A model generated the notes under the pieces. The model was not told the DNA's origin, did not search any database, and saw only the letters and a program-made list of their open reading frames with translations. A stretch of 30,866 nt of DNA, from IMG/VR virus record IMGVR_UViG_3300026075_000370, positions 1 to 30,866 of that record; one strand, given 5' to 3'. Below, one piece after another: positions 1 through 25,142 of the stretch. This DNA comes from a virus. Position 1 is the first letter of the stretch. Each line of letters opens with the position of its first letter. Position numbers and translations under genes: made by a program.

Positions 1-860
1 AGGTTGCCGGTCACCCAGCTCCCCGTGCTGTAGATGCCCAGTCGCACGCCGGTCGTCCCCGGCCCGCTGTGCTCGAACCGGCATCCCGTGACCTCCACCT
101 GCGCGTAGGAGGTGGAGAACCCCACCACGTCGATCCCAATCAGCGTCGTGCCCTCGATGGAGAGGCCGGAGATCAGGATGTTATTGCCGAAGACACGGAC
201 CGCGGTACCACCATCCACTCGCGCCTCGCCGCCGATGATCCGGGTGCTGTTGGCTCCACCCTGGAGTGCCGTCCCAATCAGGTCGAAGGCGTAGACCTTC
301 GTGCGCACCTGGCATTCGATGAAGGTATCGTGGAATGCCCCGATGGTTGCTTCCACGCGATTGCCCACGTCGAACATGGCGTTCGCATCCAGGTCGTTGT
401 TGACCACGTTGACCTGGCGAACATTGGAACGGTCGACATCGAGCATATGCAGGGCCACACCGCCCGTAGTGCCGATCTGCCGCTGCATGGCGAAGCACTC
501 GAACCGGAGGTTGTAGATGCGCGCTCCGCTGGGGTTGGAGAACACGCCCTTGCCGGTGGTGGTCTGCACCAGCAGCGACATCGCCTTGGACGCCCCCTGC
601 CAGCTCACGTTCGGAACGAGCGGGATTTCGTCATCGATCTCGTAGCGCTGGGATGGGATGAAAACCGTGCCTCCACCAGCAGCGGCACAGGCATCGCGCG
701 CCGCCAGAATCGCAACGCGGTTCTCAGTCGGCGTTTTGGTGCTCCCAGCACCGTACGCGTCGATGTCCCACCAGTTACCGCCCTTGCTGTGCCAAATACC
801 GAACTGGGGCTCGGTGAACTCCTGTTCGGCGTTGAGCCGGGCCAGCCTTGCGTCGGGCAT
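1..860 (-). CDS. Tailspike / parallel beta-helix protein, N-terminal part (3' end off the left edge)
   Basis: An open minus-strand frame starts at ATG 860 (AGGA 9 nt upstream) and stays open to base 1, so only the first 286 residues are seen. About residues 32-75 contain a YGAG segment and then DACAAAGGGTVFIPSQRYEI, which matches the pectate-lyase-3 type start of right-handed parallel beta-helix proteins (usual form: GAKGDG...AI..A...A...GGGTV..P.G.Y). The following sequence is the Asn/Val/Gly-rich repeat expected of beta-helix coils. In phages such proteins are tailspikes or tail fibres that bind or degrade host surface glycans, which fits its place after the head and connector genes. The usual GDG turn is replaced by GST. 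Whether it has enzymatic activity cannot be judged without the C-terminal half. The fold call is good; the substrate is unknown. Confidence 0.75.
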   Translation of the reverse strand, partial: MPDARLARLNAEQEFTEPQFGIWHSKGGNWWDIDAYGAGSTKTPTENRVAILAARDACAAAGGGTVFIPSQRYEIDDEIPLVPNVSWQGASKAMSLLVQTTTGKGVFSNPSGARIYNLRFECFAMQRQIGTTGGVALHMLDVDRSNVRQVNVVNNDLDANAMFDVGNRVEATIGAFHDTFIECQVRTKVYAFDLIGTALQGGANSTRIIGGEARVDGGTAVRVFGNNILISGLSIEGTTLIGIDVVGFSTSYAQVEVTGCRFEHSGPGTTGVRLGIYSTGSWVTGN

Positions 861-17419: not shown

Positions 17420-17591
17420 CGGGCCCCTCCGTATCCTGTTCGAGATCGTACCCCAGCTGCTCGCAGAACATCGCGCAGTCCTCCACGACCTGCGCGAACG
17501 CCCGGCCGCGATCCTCCGGCGCTTCGTCGTCCTCGGTGAACAGCTCGAAGAGCAGGGAGCGGATTCCCTTCAGGCGCTGCTTGACGCTCAC
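17271..17591 (-). CDS. Small acidic protein, 106 aa, long overlap with the next gene
   Basis: GTG 17591 begins VSVKQRLKGIRSLLFELFTEDDEAPEDRGRAFAQVVEDCAMFCEQLGYDLEQDTEGPDGGG, which reads as a good helical protein. From about residue 60 the sequence becomes low-complexity and overlaps the well-supported gene at 17141-17419 in another frame by 149 bp. The 5' part is probably coding. The true 3' end may be short of 17271 if a frameshift or sequencing error is present. Function is unknown. Confidence 0.45.
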   Translation of the reverse strand: MSVKQRLKGIRSLLFELFTEDDEAPEDRGRAFAQVVEDCAMFCEQLGYDLEQDTEGPDGGGAEEGPGVPDQAAERHLPGSRQAGRDRVAREAVAEFGGDEEAPDDR

Positions 17592-17676
17592 CCTAGTAAC
17601 CCCAGGATCGCTCAGGACCCTCGTAAAGAGAGGAGGGCAGGGCTGGATGGCCTCACCCCCCTCTCGTGCGTTTAAA

Positions 17677-17780
17677 GGCAGGGAGAGGGTGCAGGACTCC
17701 AACCTGCTCACCTTCCGCCGGAGCGGCAGCTCGTTTACGCGGGCCGTCTATCCCGCCAGAGCTTTCTCCCTTTCCCTGCC
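17677..17780 (-). ncRNA. Cloverleaf-like structured RNA, unassigned
   Basis: Read on the minus strand, 104 nt fold by eye into a four-way junction. The closing stem pairs bases 17768-17780 with 17677-17689 (13 positions, one C/A mismatch). Inside lie an AGCTC/GAGCT stem (17759-17763 with 17728-17732) that carries a GCGGG/CCCGC hairpin, a CCGC-TCCG-GCGG hairpin with UNCG tetraloop (17715-17726), and GCAGG-TTGGAGT-CCTGC (17691-17707), whose 5-bp stem and 7-nt loop resemble a tRNA T-arm. It lies 107 nt downstream of tRNA-Pro in the same direction, in a stretch without genes. It is too long and lacks a normal D-arm and anticodon, so it is not a normal tRNA. It could be a degenerate tRNA, a tRNA mimic or a regulatory RNA. 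Confidence 0.45.
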
Positions 17781-17886
17781 CGGCCAGGAGGGGGAGAAGG
17801 GCTTTGCCCCCGTGCTGGTTCCCCCGCCAAGAGTCTCCAGCCCGGCGCCAGGCAGGTTGCCCCGCCCAGCACCCTCCTCCCCCAAA

Positions 17887-17960
17887 TCGGGACGGCGGGA
17901 CTCGAACCCGCGACCTCCCGCTCCCAAAGCGGGCGCTCTCTCCAACTGAGCTACGTCCAG
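17887..17960 (-). tRNA. tRNA-Pro (anticodon UGG)
   Basis: The minus strand reads a full cloverleaf: acceptor CTGGACG/CGTCCCG (one T-C mismatch at 2-71), T8-A9, D-arm GCTC-AGTTGGAGA-GAGC, anticodon arm CCCGC-TTTGGGA-GCGGG with anticodon TGG, and T-arm GCGGG-TTCGAGT-CCCGC. CCA is not encoded. It is a phage-borne tRNA amid protein genes; proline UGG decodes CCN codons and may help translation in a host with different tRNA supply. No attL/attR duplicate is seen in the window. Confidence 0.92.
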
Positions 17961-18054
17961 AACCACTCGCTTGTCCCGGCCCCACCCCTGAGACCACAGG
18001 GAAGATCGACTGCCCACCCCCACCTGTCAAGCGGTTCGTGAAGGGGACGGTGCG

Positions 18055-18327
18055 TCAGAAGGCCCTCTCCGCGGTGTGGCAGACACAGTTACGATCCGCG
18101 CAGTGATACGAGACGGGATTCGGAACGTTCAGCCACCCGCCCTTGCGGCACGAGCAGCGCCAGCAAAACTCGGCGACACCTTCCCCGATCACCAGCAGGC
18201 GTACGTTGCCGACTCCCCCGCGATCCTCGTGTGCGTGGTCTTTGTGGGTAGGGCGCTCAGCAGTGCTTACGACGACACCCCTGTGGTGATCGTTACAATG
18301 CACGCAGGGTGTTCGAGGCTGATTCAA
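18055..18327 (-). CDS. Cys/His-rich zinc-binding-type protein, 90 aa
   Basis: TTG 18327 overlaps the preceding stop as TTGA and has GGAGGGG upstream. The protein holds CVHC (8-11) near the N-terminus, several His residues, then CWRCSCRKGGW and at the end YHCADRNCVC, giving a pattern of paired cysteines that could hold two zinc ions. Similar small zinc-ribbon proteins are frequent in phages and may bind nucleic acids or act as adaptors; this one is not assigned to a family. It is the last protein gene before the tRNA-Pro. Confidence 0.65.
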   Translation of the reverse strand: MNQPRTPCVHCNDHHRGVVVSTAERPTHKDHAHEDRGGVGNVRLLVIGEGVAEFCWRCSCRKGGWLNVPNPVSYHCADRNCVCHTAERAF

Positions 18328-19014: not shown

Positions 19015-19877
19015 CATCCCTCCTCCGGTTGCTGGGTGACATCAAGTCCACTCCGGAGGCCCTGGAGGACGAACTGGCGCAGCTCCTCGATCTCCTGCTC
19101 CCACTCCTCCGGCACCGGGAGCGCAGAGCGCACGCAGGCTGACACGGCGGCCTCCAGCTCCTTTATCCGCTCGCCCGCGATGAACCGGCGCGGCAGAACG
19201 TACGGAAGGGACTGCGTCCGCTGCACCCGCCGGTTCTCCACCACCATCGGCGCGGCAGATGGCGAGTCACGGGGCGCGAAGGTGTTGCCCTCCACCACTA
19301 GATCGGGCATGGGGTCCTCACATTTCTCCGAGGCAGGCATCCTTCGCGCCCAGATGGTCGGCGGCTGGAGCAGGTGCGCCACCTCGCGAGCACGAAACTC
19401 CACTTGCGTCACGTCAGACTTGCGCGTCTGGTGAAGATGGACCAGCGCCCGCGATAGCGGCGTGTCCACCACCAGCGCGTGGATGCGCTCGTCGTGCTCG
19501 CGCTCCATCCCTCTCAGCCTCTCCGCGTTGACTTCCTCCGCCTGCTGAAAAGCGGTCTCCCGCGGGGTCCTTGCTGTCTCCCGTTCCTTCACCTCTCGCG
19601 TGCCTTCTGCTTCGGACTCGGGCGTGAGGTGGGCCAGCAACTTGGGAGGAACCGGCGAGACAGGGCACCACACCACCCACCCGACCCTGTCCTTGTCGTA
19701 GCGGTCTATCGGGAGGTGATAGGTTTGGGGAAGCCATGGCTTACTGGAGGAAAAATTGGAGTACGCCCTTTCAACGAACCGCAACGAGCCGGGACGCATC
19801 GGCTCGCTTCCGTCGCAGTGCCTCGCCTCCTCCTCCAGCCTTTCGGCAGCCCCAACCGTGATAAAGTACTTGGCCAT
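19014..19877 (-). CDS. Hypothetical protein, 287 aa, with central coiled coil
   Basis: ATG 19877 overlaps the tandem-HTH gene's stop as TGATG, with AGGAGGGG upstream; a GTG one codon earlier is possible. It is the largest unknown gene of this block. The N-terminal 85 residues look folded (MAKYFITVGAAERLEEEARHCDG; YHLPIDRYDKDRVGWVVWCPVSPVP), residues about 90-145 are a charged coiled coil (EGTREVKERETARTPRETAFQQAEEVNAERLRGMEREHDERI), and the C-terminus has a helical acidic region (EELRQFVLQGLRSGLDV). No known family is recognised. Coupling to the DNA-binding gene upstream suggests they act together. Confidence 0.7.
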   Translation of the reverse strand: MAKYFITVGAAERLEEEARHCDGSEPMRPGSLRFVERAYSNFSSSKPWLPQTYHLPIDRYDKDRVGWVVWCPVSPVPPKLLAHLTPESEAEGTREVKERETARTPRETAFQQAEEVNAERLRGMEREHDERIHALVVDTPLSRALVHLHQTRKSDVTQVEFRAREVAHLLQPPTIWARRMPASEKCEDPMPDLVVEGNTFAPRDSPSAAPMVVENRRVQRTQSLPYVLPRRFIAGERIKELEAAVSACVRSALPVPEEWEQEIEELRQFVLQGLRSGLDVTQQPEEG

Positions 19878-20194
19878 CACCCCTCCTGCGCAGAGGATGC
19901 GTACAGCCCCAGGCGGATCATCGCCTTCTTCGCCCCAGCCGGGCTCATCCCTGCCGCTCGGGCGATGCCGCGCAGGGACAGTCCCCCACGAGCCACCAGC
20001 TCCTTCAACTTCTCGTCGCTCTTGCCGTAGGGCGAGGGGCGCTCCCCCAGACCCAGGCGCTCCGCCGCCTTCTTCGCCCCCGTGGGGCTCATCCCTACCC
20101 GGCGCGCCAACTCCCGCAGCGACAGGGACGCATCCCCCCAGAGCTCCCGCAGCTCTCCGTCCTTGCCGTGCCGCTTCCAGTGCCCGCCGCCCAT
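19877..20194 (-). CDS. Tandem helix-turn-helix DNA-binding protein, 105 aa
   Basis: ATG 20194 is preceded by GGGAG. The protein is made of two copies of one HTH unit: residues 22-49 (LSLRELARRVGMSPTGAKKAAERLGL) and 70-97 (LSLRGIARAAGMSPAGAKKAMIRLGL), with 19 of 28 positions identical, and a short helix before each (ELRELWGD; KLKELVAR). This looks like an internal duplication of a GcrA/Myb-like or small-terminase-like HTH. It could bind a DNA site made of two direct half-sites. It is the first gene of the leftward block downstream of the repeat-rich non-coding region, so it is a good candidate for a regulator of that region. It is also conceivable as a second small-terminase-like protein. Confidence 0.75.
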   Translation of the reverse strand: MGGGHWKRHGKDGELRELWGDASLSLRELARRVGMSPTGAKKAAERLGLGERPSPYGKSDEKLKELVARGGLSLRGIARAAGMSPAGAKKAMIRLGLYASSAQEG

Positions 20195-20211
20195 CGCACT
20201 CTCCCGTGCAG

Positions 20212-20228
20212 GTGAACGAATAGTGAAC
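20212..20228. promoter_or_regulatory. Two direct GTGAAC half-sites, possible operator
   Basis: GTGAAC occurs at 20212-20217 and again at 20223-20228, starts 11 bp apart, that is one helical turn, immediately upstream of the tandem-HTH gene. Direct half-sites on the same DNA face would suit a protein with two HTH units in tandem. Binding is inferred from spacing only. Confidence 0.4.
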
Positions 20229-20300
20229 CGTGCCAACAATCTGCGGGTGTCACAGGGGGATGTCAACCAGCTTGGTTCCGGAGATCCCCTTGCGCGCCCT

Positions 20301-20333
20301 CGTGTGCGTGTGTACGCGCGTGTGCGTGCGCGT
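20301..20333. repeat. 33-bp alternating pyrimidine-purine tract
   Basis: Every position from 20301 to 20333 alternates pyrimidine-purine (CG/TG/TA steps). Such sequences can take the left-handed Z form under negative supercoiling. The length without interruption is unusual even in G+C-rich DNA. Confidence 0.85.
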
Positions 20334-20338
20334 CTCTG

Positions 20339-20351
20339 ACCATACTATGGT
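20339..20351. promoter_or_regulatory. 13-bp palindrome ACCATACTATGGT
   Basis: ACCATA-C-TATGGT is a perfect odd palindrome 5 bp from the end of the alternating tract, the typical form of a repressor operator with 6-bp half-sites. No second copy was found in the window. Its ligand is unknown. Confidence 0.5.
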
Positions 20352-20357
20352 ATCTGT

Positions 20358-20448
20358 GGTAGCTTCCTGTATAGACCGGATAGCTGGTCAGGAGCAGCAG
20401 AAAGATGTGCAGGAGCTACAGATTCCATGGAAGCTACCGGTATAGACC
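20358..20448. repeat. Interleaved inverted and direct repeats
   Basis: GGTAGCTTCC (20358-20367) is repeated inverted as GGAAGCTACC (20429-20438), and GTATAGACC is directly repeated at 20369-20377 and 20440-20448 (starts 71 bp apart). A further imperfect inverted match joins about 20346-20369 with 20410-20430. The combination looks like a protein-bound complex site. Confidence 0.6.
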
Positions 20449-20500
20449 AGTCGCTAACAGGAAAAAATCTTTTAAACACACTATCCGCGCGCGAGAACAG

Positions 20501-20539
20501 CACCATGTAAACCATTGCAGGAACGGCGTTTACATGGTG
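20501..20539. repeat. 12-bp perfect inverted repeat with 15-nt loop
   Basis: CACCATGTAAAC (20501-20512) pairs with GTTTACATGGTG (20528-20539). It directly follows the A/T-rich islet, and could be an operator, replication hairpin or, if transcribed, a stable stem. No U-tract follows on either strand. Confidence 0.7.
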
Positions 20540-20540
20540 A

Positions 20541-20674
20541 GGTGGGTCGCCACACGACCCAGGGGGTAGGCCAAACCATCCGGCCGCAACGAGTTACAGC
20601 AACTCTGGACAGCGACTCCCTAGGGCGTGCTACGACCCACCCCCCAGACCAGGTGCTGCTGCCGCAACGAGTTA
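20541..20674. repeat. Repeated 14-mer GCCGCAACGAGTTA and inverted GGTGGGTCG
   Basis: GCCGCAACGAGTTA is present identically at 20583-20596 and 20661-20674 (78 bp apart), like an iteron. GGTGGGTCG at 20541-20549 has its inverse complement CGACCCACC at 20633-20641. Nothing in this stretch reads as a gene. Confidence 0.6.
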
Positions 20675-21059
20675 AGCCCTCTCGTCCCGTACGCGCGCGC
20701 GAGGGACCCAAATCTGGACGGGGGTACCAGGGAGGGGGTCCAACAGCGGTGTCCCTGTGCAGCAGAATGTATCATTTCCGCGCGCGACCCGGCCGGGGGA
20801 CCCGACCGCCTACCCGGGGGGCACCCAGGGGGGGTACCCCATCCACCTCACACGTGAGGCGGCGCCTCGCACAGGATTCGTCCTGCTCCTCTATCGATCT
20901 CCTTCTTTTGCCCGCGGAGCGGGCCACCATCCAGCATGGCCGCCAACATTTCCCGACACAATCCCAGGTTTACATAAAGCCGCTTATCGGCATTCGACCT
21001 GAATCCAGCACCCAATGGGCCAGTGTGTGCAGGTTTGGCACGAGTTGGCAGGCTGTTCC

Positions 21060-21075
21060 TGTCAGTTCACTGACA
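21060..21075. promoter_or_regulatory. 16-bp palindrome TGTCAGTTCACTGACA
   Basis: TGTCAGT and ACTGACA flank a 2-bp centre, a perfect dyad of operator size. It lies upstream (for plus-strand reading) of the long hairpin at 21101-21147. Function unknown. Confidence 0.5.
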
Positions 21076-21100
21076 CCCGCCTGAAATCGCTCTCAGACGC

Positions 21101-21147
21101 ACGAGAACCCGCCGGGTGGCTCCTGACACCTCCAGCGGGTTCCTCGT
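21101..21147. repeat. Long hairpin and direct repeat GTGGCTCCTGA
   Basis: ACGAGAACCCGC (21101-21112) pairs with GCGGGTTCCTCGT (21135-21147) with one bulged base, and GGTG/CACC pair inside. GTGGCTCCTGA (21116-21126) is repeated at 21146-21156. As a transcript from the minus strand this would lie 88 nt downstream of the tRNA-like RNA. Confidence 0.55.
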
Positions 21148-21234
21148 GGCTCCTGAGTGGGCTAGCGTGCGAATCTCAGGGTGTTCTGTGGGAGAGGGGA
21201 CAGCTCCTTCGACCAATGGCGTGGTCGCCTACAA

Positions 21235-21350
21235 TGGCGGCGTGCGGGATTTGAACCCGCTCGGATGCGTGACCGGGCCCGATGCCCGTTGATGGCCCTG
21301 CGGGCCCCGCATCCTTCCTGGTGGAGAGGTTAGGTTAACCCTCCCCCGCC
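21235..21350 (-). ncRNA. tRNA-like RNA with long internal hairpin, 116 nt
   Basis: On the minus strand the ends pair as GGCGGGG with CGCCGCC (one mismatch) plus a discriminator A, and the 3' side has a textbook T-arm GCGGG-TTCAAAT-CCCGC. The 5' side has GAGG-N10-CCTC in the place of a D-arm, but without the GG of a D-loop, and then a long rod GGATGCG-GGGCCCG ... CGGGCCC-GGTCA-CGCATCC with two perfect 7-bp stems. A CCA anticodon-like loop (CCT-CTCCACC-AGG) is possible but has a short stem. It is not a normal tRNA; a mimic, a tRNA with inserted rod or a decayed gene are possible. Its 5' end overlaps the last codons of the 52-aa gene. Confidence 0.5.
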
Positions 21351-21493
21351 GCAACCGGGAGACCGACCCCGCGTGCGACTGCGTCCTCGATCCTGCACCA
21401 CACGCACCGCACGTCCTTGCAGGGTCGTTGCTGCGAGCACGGGGGACGGTTCGCAACGAGCGATTCGGCAACCTGCCTCAATTTCTCATTCAT
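21335..21493 (-). CDS. Micro-protein with Cys cluster, 52 aa
   Basis: ATG 21493 with GGGAGG upstream, start overlapping the end of the previous gene (ATGAATGA). The product has CSQQRPCKDVRCVWC at residues 19-33, four cysteines of a small zinc knuckle, with a helical start (MNEKLRQVAESLVAN) and a Gly/Ala/Val tail. Its stop lies within the 5' part of the tRNA-like RNA. Family not recognised. Confidence 0.6.
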   Translation of the reverse strand: MNEKLRQVAESLVANRPPCSQQRPCKDVRCVWCRIEDAVARGVGLPVAAGEG

Positions 21494-21638
21494 CCCCTGG
21501 CCTCCCTCTCCGGCGCTTGCGCCACGACCGGCCGTCCCACGCCCTGTTGCGCGTCCTTCGTGCGTACGGCCACCGCACGGCGCCCAGGGTGTACGACAGC
21601 ACGCCCAGCCTGCGAGGCGCTCTCCTGCTCATCCTCAT
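21486..21638 (-). CDS. Arg-rich micro-protein, 50 aa
   Basis: ATG 21638 overlaps the preceding micro-gene stop as ATGA; the stop overlaps the next start. The product is extremely basic (ARRTRNRAW; RSWRKRRRGRPG) with a short hydrophobic middle (LGVLSYTLGAVRWPY). It may bind nucleic acids or membranes. A by-product reading frame cannot be excluded, but the double overlap speaks for translation. Confidence 0.5.
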   Translation of the reverse strand: MRMSRRAPRRLGVLSYTLGAVRWPYARRTRNRAWDGRSWRKRRRGRPGDE

Positions 21639-24304: not shown

Positions 24305-24537
24305 TGCGCCGCAAGCCTCGGCCACTCTTTCACCCGGACCCACCGCCGGCCTTCCCGGCGGGCGGGATCTATCGGGGCAACCCCTGCGTGATCCGCTGTC
24401 TTCTGGTGCGTGAGCACACGGGGCGCTCGCGCCCCTTCACCAGACGCTTCGCGGAATTCGGCCATGTGGCAGCATGGCTGCGCGAGCAACGCGCCGATCA
24501 TCGCATTGTTCACCGGGCGACGGATAGTCCCACCTGA
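24304..24537 (+). CDS. Hypothetical basic protein, 77 aa
   Basis: ATG 24304 overlaps the preceding stop as TGATG. The product is basic with Pro-rich start (MRRKPRPLFHPDPPPAFPAGGIYRG) and then a small domain (VIRCLLVREHTGRSRPFTRRFAEFGHVAAWLREQRADHRIV), probably two strands and a helix. No family. It ends before a long intergenic stretch with hairpins. Confidence 0.62.
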   Translation: MRRKPRPLFHPDPPPAFPAGGIYRGNPCVIRCLLVREHTGRSRPFTRRFAEFGHVAAWLREQRADHRIVHRATDSPT

Positions 24538-25142
24538 AGAGTGCTCGGTGGCTCCGAGCCGAAACGGGTTGAAGTCTAACCCGTTGTGGGAAGCCAAGTT
24601 AGAGAGACACCTTGCGCAATCCTGACTGGCGGGTGTATCTTTCTCTCCACGAACACCGCCGGACTGGCGGACGCAGGACGCGGCTGAAGCAGGCAGGGCC
24701 CCGCCTTGATCGGGAGTCGCACGGGGCAGGCAGGGAAGGGCGCACGCGGCCGGATTATCTCCGGGATGGACAGCGAGCCCTACGCTGATTGACAGATCAG
24801 ATTCGCGAGCGACCGGGCAACGCCTGGCGCGCGGCCCCGCTGGGAAGCGGCGCCAGAATCGAATGGGTCATGGGAAACAGGGCCGCGCCGAAGGTGCGCA
24901 CGGCGAGGCGAGAACACGCCCCGCCATTCCCCGTTCGATCCGGGGGCGGCCCTATCTGGGGAGACGCTGGCTTGGAGCAGCAGGGCGAGCGTGCGTCGTT
25001 GGGCGCCACGGAGCGGGTCCAAACCGCGCTGTGTCATCCGGAGGCCGGGGAACTGGCCCAAGAGCGAGTTTCCGGTATGCGCCCGACCGTCTTCCCACCC
25101 CTCCCCAACGGTCCCTTATCCCCCTCACGCAGAAGAGGAAGT
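24538..25142. other. 605-bp gap without a supported gene
   Basis: Two hairpins lie just after the upstream stop. Farther on are direct repeats GACTGGCGG (about 24638 and 24662) and GCAGGCAGGG (24689-24698, 24726-24735) and several short inverted repeats. Open frames on either strand across 24780-25061 lack ribosome sites and have odd, Arg/Gly/Pro-rich translations. A TTGACA at 24789 has no matching -10 at the right distance. Confidence 0.55.
24543..24585 (+). terminator. Two tandem hairpins after the 77-aa gene
   Basis: GCTCGG-TGGCT-CCGAGC (24543-24559) is followed by AACGGGTT-GAAGTCT-AACCCGTT (24563-24585), perfect 6-bp and 8-bp stems. The second is preceded by GCCGAAAC. There is no U-tract, so rho-independent termination is not sure; transcript-end protection or processing are alternatives. 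Confidence 0.5.

Follow-up and report, generated by a model that had tools for sequence, protein, structure and literature searches.

Domains built of an acceptor and a T-arm act as RNA-end processing signals or as mimics of transfer RNA (tRNA) without decoding, as in the t-elements of plant mitochondria and the tRNA-like structures of plant viruses. In our study, a tRNA-like structure termed element A has been analysed in a tailed phage, where it lies on the minus strand of a stretch of 30,866 bases (the window) which is the entire IMG/VR virus record IMGVR_UViG_3300026075_000370. The plant examples come from different organisms, and for element A such processing is a prediction. Many tRNAs are carried by phages, and tRNA-cutting defences are a current topic. 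In Bacillus cereus, the pseudo-tRNA tRNAOther is described as a tRNA-like RNA without translation function which adjoins mobile DNA (PMC3399842), and element A may be likened to it as a putatively non-translational tRNA-like RNA. Prokaryotic tRNA gene fragments arise from integration events or from spacers of clustered regularly interspaced short palindromic repeats (CRISPR) and, like element A, represent partial tRNA sequence outside complete genes; those fragments are near-exact pieces of host or viral tRNAs (PMC9897764), whereas element A has additional arms and could be traced to no donor tRNA. Pseudo-tRNAs with non-translational roles (PMC3399842) and common tRNA fragments (PMC9897764) are thus already known. 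The literature searched, which gave partial coverage, contained no phage RNA in which the helices covary and the acceptor/T-arm half is all that is kept. Element A is tentatively read as a tRNA-like RNA which derives from a tRNA, lacks an anticodon and has a maintained acceptor/T-arm half, and we give this reading a little less than an even chance. The features of the locus, with their evidence, are as follows.

21236..21352, minus strand: element A, tRNA-like, comprising acceptor, D-like arm, rod, T-arm and acceptor (fold and z-score, pairing check, second-best match of model R1 described below, 18.9 bits).

21244..21260, minus strand: T-arm GCGGG-TTCAAAT-CCCGC (strict consensus; perfect stem of 5 base pairs (bp), consensus loop).

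21237..21243, minus strand: 3' strand of the acceptor, ACGCCGC, canonically spaced (pairing check: 6 pairs in a row with 21352-21347).

21346..21352, minus strand: 5' acceptor strand GCGGCGG (fold, pairing check).

21322..21345, minus strand: D-like hairpin stacked on the acceptor (fold, sequence).

21263..21314, minus strand: rod of two perfect 7-bp stems replacing the anticodon and variable arms (fold, pairing check).

A sequence-only reading had placed a tRNA-like structure at 21235-21350; the structure is present and runs on the minus strand from 21352 to 21236, and a plus-strand reading was rejected as the tRNA features are confined to the minus strand. The T-arm which that reading called perfect has a 5-bp T-stem with a consensus T-loop (21260-21244), and both stems of its proposed rod were found to be perfect (21314-21301 / 21281-21263). 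Rod stem 1 is GGATGCG/CGCATCC (21314-21308 / 21269-21263) and stem 2 is GGGCCCG/CGGGCCC (21307-21301 / 21281-21275), with a bulge of 5 nucleotides (nt) between them, and the rod ends 2 nt before the T-stem. The D-like arm was also rightly called non-canonical, being a hairpin without D-arm consensus in which no G18-G19 loop motif was seen. The 7-bp acceptor stood as a pairing and not in its details, since the proposed register GGCGGGG/CGCCGCC (21350-21344 / 21242-21236) gives six of seven pairs, the remaining position being a G.G mismatch, and calls for a bulged A behind the T-stem; the canonically spaced register is GCGGCG(G)/(A)CGCCGC (21352-21346 / 21243-21237) with 6 contiguous pairs, and the discriminator position is C at 21236. 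The anticodon arm is missing, only about 7-11 nt being left between the D-like arm and the rod, and the suggested extended class II tRNA is thereby disfavoured.

Against the canonical features of a tRNA, element A has the T-arm with a TTCRANY loop and a 5-bp stem, and no cloverleaf with an anticodon arm is recognised in it by ARAGORN or RF00005. ARAGORN and the Rfam covariance models at gathering scores called only a tRNA-Pro at 17886-17961 and nothing at element A, which agrees with the view that it is not a normal tRNA. That element A is an unusual tRNA which still decodes, of class II or like tRNA-Sec, is barely conceivable. In favour of it stands the best Rfam tRNA-clan score at element A, a weak covariance match to tRNA-Sec (RF01852; 19.2 bits, E 1.1) which does not reach the gathering score of 47; against it, there is no anticodon arm, the anticodon loop is unmatched in the tRNA-Sec alignment, and ARAGORN stays negative at the locus even when introns are allowed. 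This last result also removes an intron-containing tRNA, and the ARAGORN scan for tRNA and transfer-messenger RNA gave none of the latter at the locus; relaxed ARAGORN output (about 320 'genes') was discarded as noise. A circularly permuted tRNA was rejected after a by-eye look downstream of the 3' half of element A, which showed no 5' half. The Rfam scan of the region gave no match to Y RNA (YrlA), with no search aimed at a Ro gene.

Strict T-arms occur three times in the window, in the tRNA-Pro and in elements A and B (the latter at 24929), as compared to 0.047 expected per dinucleotide-shuffled window. The other tRNA-like features of the window are as follows.

17886..17961, minus strand: intact tRNA-Pro (TGG) (ARAGORN; Rfam 63.5 bits).

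24880..24953, plus strand: element B, an orphan tRNA-like structure of 74 nt (best model R1 match, 26.3 bits, E 9e-4; fold z -2.6).

17677..17780, minus strand: third tRNA-like structure, beside the tRNA-Pro, with a long outer stem and a T-arm with an altered T-loop.

Codon-usage scoring of the regions examined revealed three stretches without coding signal (approximately 17555-18140, 20200-21500 and 24540-25140), which together make up about 8% of the window, and the tRNA-Pro, the 17677 element and elements A and B all lie inside them. The location of both orphan T-arms in these few non-coding stretches supports the reading of a maintained tRNA-like RNA. The stretch around element A is about 1.3 kilobases (kb) long. 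The micro-gene which element A was said to overlap exists as an open reading frame (ORF) of 52 amino acids (21493-21335), the TAA of which sits inside the D-like hairpin, but its coding score is weakly negative, whereas genuine genes nearby reach about +8 to +18 bits for each 90 nt; as the stretch has no coding signal, the micro-gene is unsupported.

A chance origin, in which a GC-rich and hairpin-prone non-coding stretch merely happens to hold a T-arm consensus, is improbable. It would be in keeping with the acceptor pairing, which is at chance level, with the lack of a significant Rfam match, and with the finding that about 1-2% of the 120-nt windows across the GC-rich record fold as strongly as element A, for which the folding z-score is -3.4 (21235-21350) or -4.5 (21352-21236). 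It does not account for two orphan T-arms, both in the small non-coding part, with so few expected per window, nor for elements B and A being ranked first by model R1. Given a T-arm, 0.7% of shuffles reached the full topology, in a test designed once the structure had been seen, and 2.9% had a perfect 7-bp stem placed like the rod of element A.

The architecture of element A was found again in cluster L mycobacteriophages, in an intergenic RNA that has no annotation. In Archie (L011, 36180-36273) a 7-bp acceptor with an abutting 6-bp hairpin is followed by an 8-bp rod and a T-arm, the 3' acceptor closes the structure, and there is no anticodon arm. This RNA, present also in L012-L020, was matched in 44 mycobacteriophage records, and it is under structural selection. 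Among eight distinct sequences, 97.4% of the cells are paired and eight pairs are changed on both sides (three of the five in the T-stem and four of the eight in the rod); none of 500 shuffles reaches the observed value, and sliding the partners abolishes the signal. The acceptor and the 6-bp hairpin are nearly invariant and hence neither supported nor refuted by this count. The rod has 8 bp in most copies, whereas in MkaliMitinis3 (L019, 445-509) and, at the same place, Loadrie (L020) a nearly complete tRNA is nested instead of it, which in L019 scores 26.2 bits with Rfam, below gathering. Element A and the cluster L RNA have the same helix topology: in both the T-arm stands at canonical spacing, a hairpin abuts the acceptor at the D-arm position, a single rod directly precedes the T-arm, the anticodon arm is absent and the location is intergenic. 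They differ in that sequence similarity is absent beyond the tRNA-like positions and in that a GGT is conserved in the D-like loop of the cluster L RNA and was not observed in the window. The main text of a paper on tRNA-dependent lysogeny which covers cluster L phages does not contain the terms Archie, pseudo or non-canonical. As the cluster L RNA combines the same topology with covariation, a maintained tRNA-like RNA is more credible for element A than it would be from the window alone.

Model R1 was built from the eight cluster L sequences and searched against the window with filters off. The best score went to element B (26.3 bits, E 9e-4) and the next to element A (18.9 bits, E 0.03), with the tRNA-Pro lower (13.7 bits), while over 281 kb of other phages the best match outside tRNAs and the source element reached 17.5 bits. 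Element B has a 7/7 acceptor (GGGCCGC/GCGGCCC), a perfect T-arm (CCCCG-TTCGATC-CGGGG), a rod or degenerate anticodon arm, and a non-coding location. Real tRNAs reach 19.6 bits, and therefore a match with R1 expresses the tRNA-likeness of this topology and not membership; it does not indicate common descent beyond tRNA ancestry.

The main rival is a decayed tRNA, that is, a once normal phage tRNA gene which lost its anticodon half by rearrangement and is now drifting without function, and this is quite possible although on the whole doubtful. Contig L002, one of the nearest relatives, has four tRNAs (Pro, His, Lys and Ala) immediately before terL, the window has Pro only, and L005, L021 and L022 have none in the sequenced parts examined; these differing sets indicate that tRNA content turns over in the lineage, and decay could be part of such turnover. 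Orphan T-arms are also common in other phages and mostly intergenic, as in Shocker at 36119 (minus), DS1 at 24408 (minus) and Archie at 36249 and 42352 (plus), the one in Yucca being inside a gene. The 17677 element resembles a damaged tRNA-Leu, and the T-arm and 3' acceptor of element A match a real phage tRNA-Gly 3' end: their 22-nt stretch (with one R position) is also present in real phage tRNA-Gly genes (L003 and L004), and an exact search of viral contigs with the T-arm/acceptor pattern gave ordinary tRNA-Gly genes only. If the gene were drifting, however, the loss of a whole arm would not be expected alongside a T-arm that is intact, an acceptor with a clean core and a rod whose two 7-bp stems are perfect, and the cluster L parallel is structurally selected.

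The same tRNA 3' part bears on a relic of a phage attachment site (attP), in which the T-arm and 3' acceptor would be part of a host tRNA gene carried by the phage. What can clearly be recognised of a tRNA in element A is limited to the 3' part, and the position of element A in a non-coding control region is as for attP sites. Such a relic is nevertheless very improbable, since an exact search with the 22-nt core found nothing in the genomes of 84,980 species, the proteins scanned included no recognised integrase, none is annotated in the distant relatives Shocker and Brad, and genome_contigs yielded no relative. Neither identity to a host tRNA 3' end nor a nearby integrase was thus seen, in a window that is a fragment and whose host is not identified. 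In blastn against phages and plasmids, element A gave short matches only, several of them to tRNA T-arms.

For the preferred reading of a maintained tRNA-like RNA, the following course can be proposed. Element A would be part of a leftward transcript, in which it would follow closely on the genes that lie downstream of the putative small terminase, and would keep the top half of a tRNA (acceptor stacked on T-arm) with a hairpin at the D-arm position, one long rod occupying the place of the anticodon and variable arms. Its acceptor/T-arm domain may be seen by the host machinery of tRNA end-processing, namely RNase P on the 5' side, 3' processing and CCA addition, and in this way a short, stable RNA may be set free or the end of the transcript marked. 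Having no anticodon, element A cannot decode and would therefore act as a tRNA mimic, possibly by signalling processing or stability or by serving as a sink for factors that bind tRNAs.

Several findings weigh against this reading. Chance T-arms find an acceptor partner of at least 6 pairs in 79% of cases, and acceptor pairing alone is for this reason no evidence. True tRNAs score 17-19.6 bits with model R1, and with default filters R1 misses elements A and B and only the tRNA-Pro appears. No promoter or terminator was recognised, and no homologous copy of element A was found in the searches made. Queries with TerL, portal, the putative small terminase, capsid and a 288-amino-acid neighbour led to short contigs or to nothing, none of them spanning the position of element A.

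A broader proposal, rather unlikely at present, is that unrelated phages encode a class of small RNAs in which the acceptor/T-arm half is kept, a variable rod or a nested tRNA replaces the anticodon half, and the whole is selected as a tRNA mimic (processing signals, or sinks for host factors which bind or cut tRNAs), with elements A and B as members. Anticodon-less tRNA look-alikes escape tRNA finders and may represent a genuine class of phage RNA that has been overlooked. The cluster L example means that at least one such RNA is structurally selected, and as it occurs in phages of an easily grown host, a mimic role is directly testable there.

The window has a leftward block with terminase, portal, capsid and RuvC-like resolvase genes, and HNH and DUF932 genes lie in a second, rightward block. 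A helix-turn-helix (HTH) gene is located at 19877-20266. The closest isolates are phages of Arthrobacter, Microbacterium and Cellulosimicrobium, with 24-29% protein identity (portal, capsid). The nearest relatives of all, found as short contigs from metagenomes, are L002 and L005 by TerL (about 50% identity) and L021 and L022 by capsid (54-55% identity). The 17677-17780 structure (minus strand) lies downstream of the tRNA-Pro, includes the tRNA-Leu-like TGGCGGGATAGACG and is probably a damaged class II, tRNA-Leu-like tRNA. It had been thought to have the T-arm feature in common with element A, but its T-loop is off consensus (GTTGGAGTC, C56->G), and it is not among the listed R1 matches in the window.

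Some further structures were observed. In Archie at 42335-42470, a tRNA 3' half (T-arm and acceptor) is directly followed by GTCGCTGTAGCTTAAGGGCAGAGC, a stretch like a tRNA 5' half; the acceptor of this stretch can form pairs with the 3' strand in front of it, and the whole is possibly a permuted or rearranged tRNA. The distant relative L024 has an orphan T-arm at 193-209 (plus) preceded by a tRNA-Leu-like D-arm, GGTGGCGGAAGATAGACGC, which is likely a truncated tRNA-Leu. In L002, strongly structured spacers (300-392, 500-604 and 830-925; z -4.4 to -6.2) lie around its four tRNA genes. In the non-coding control region of the window, a perfect 12-bp inverted repeat, CACCATGTAAAC/GTTTACATGGTG, is present at 20501-20539 and is perhaps a regulator site.
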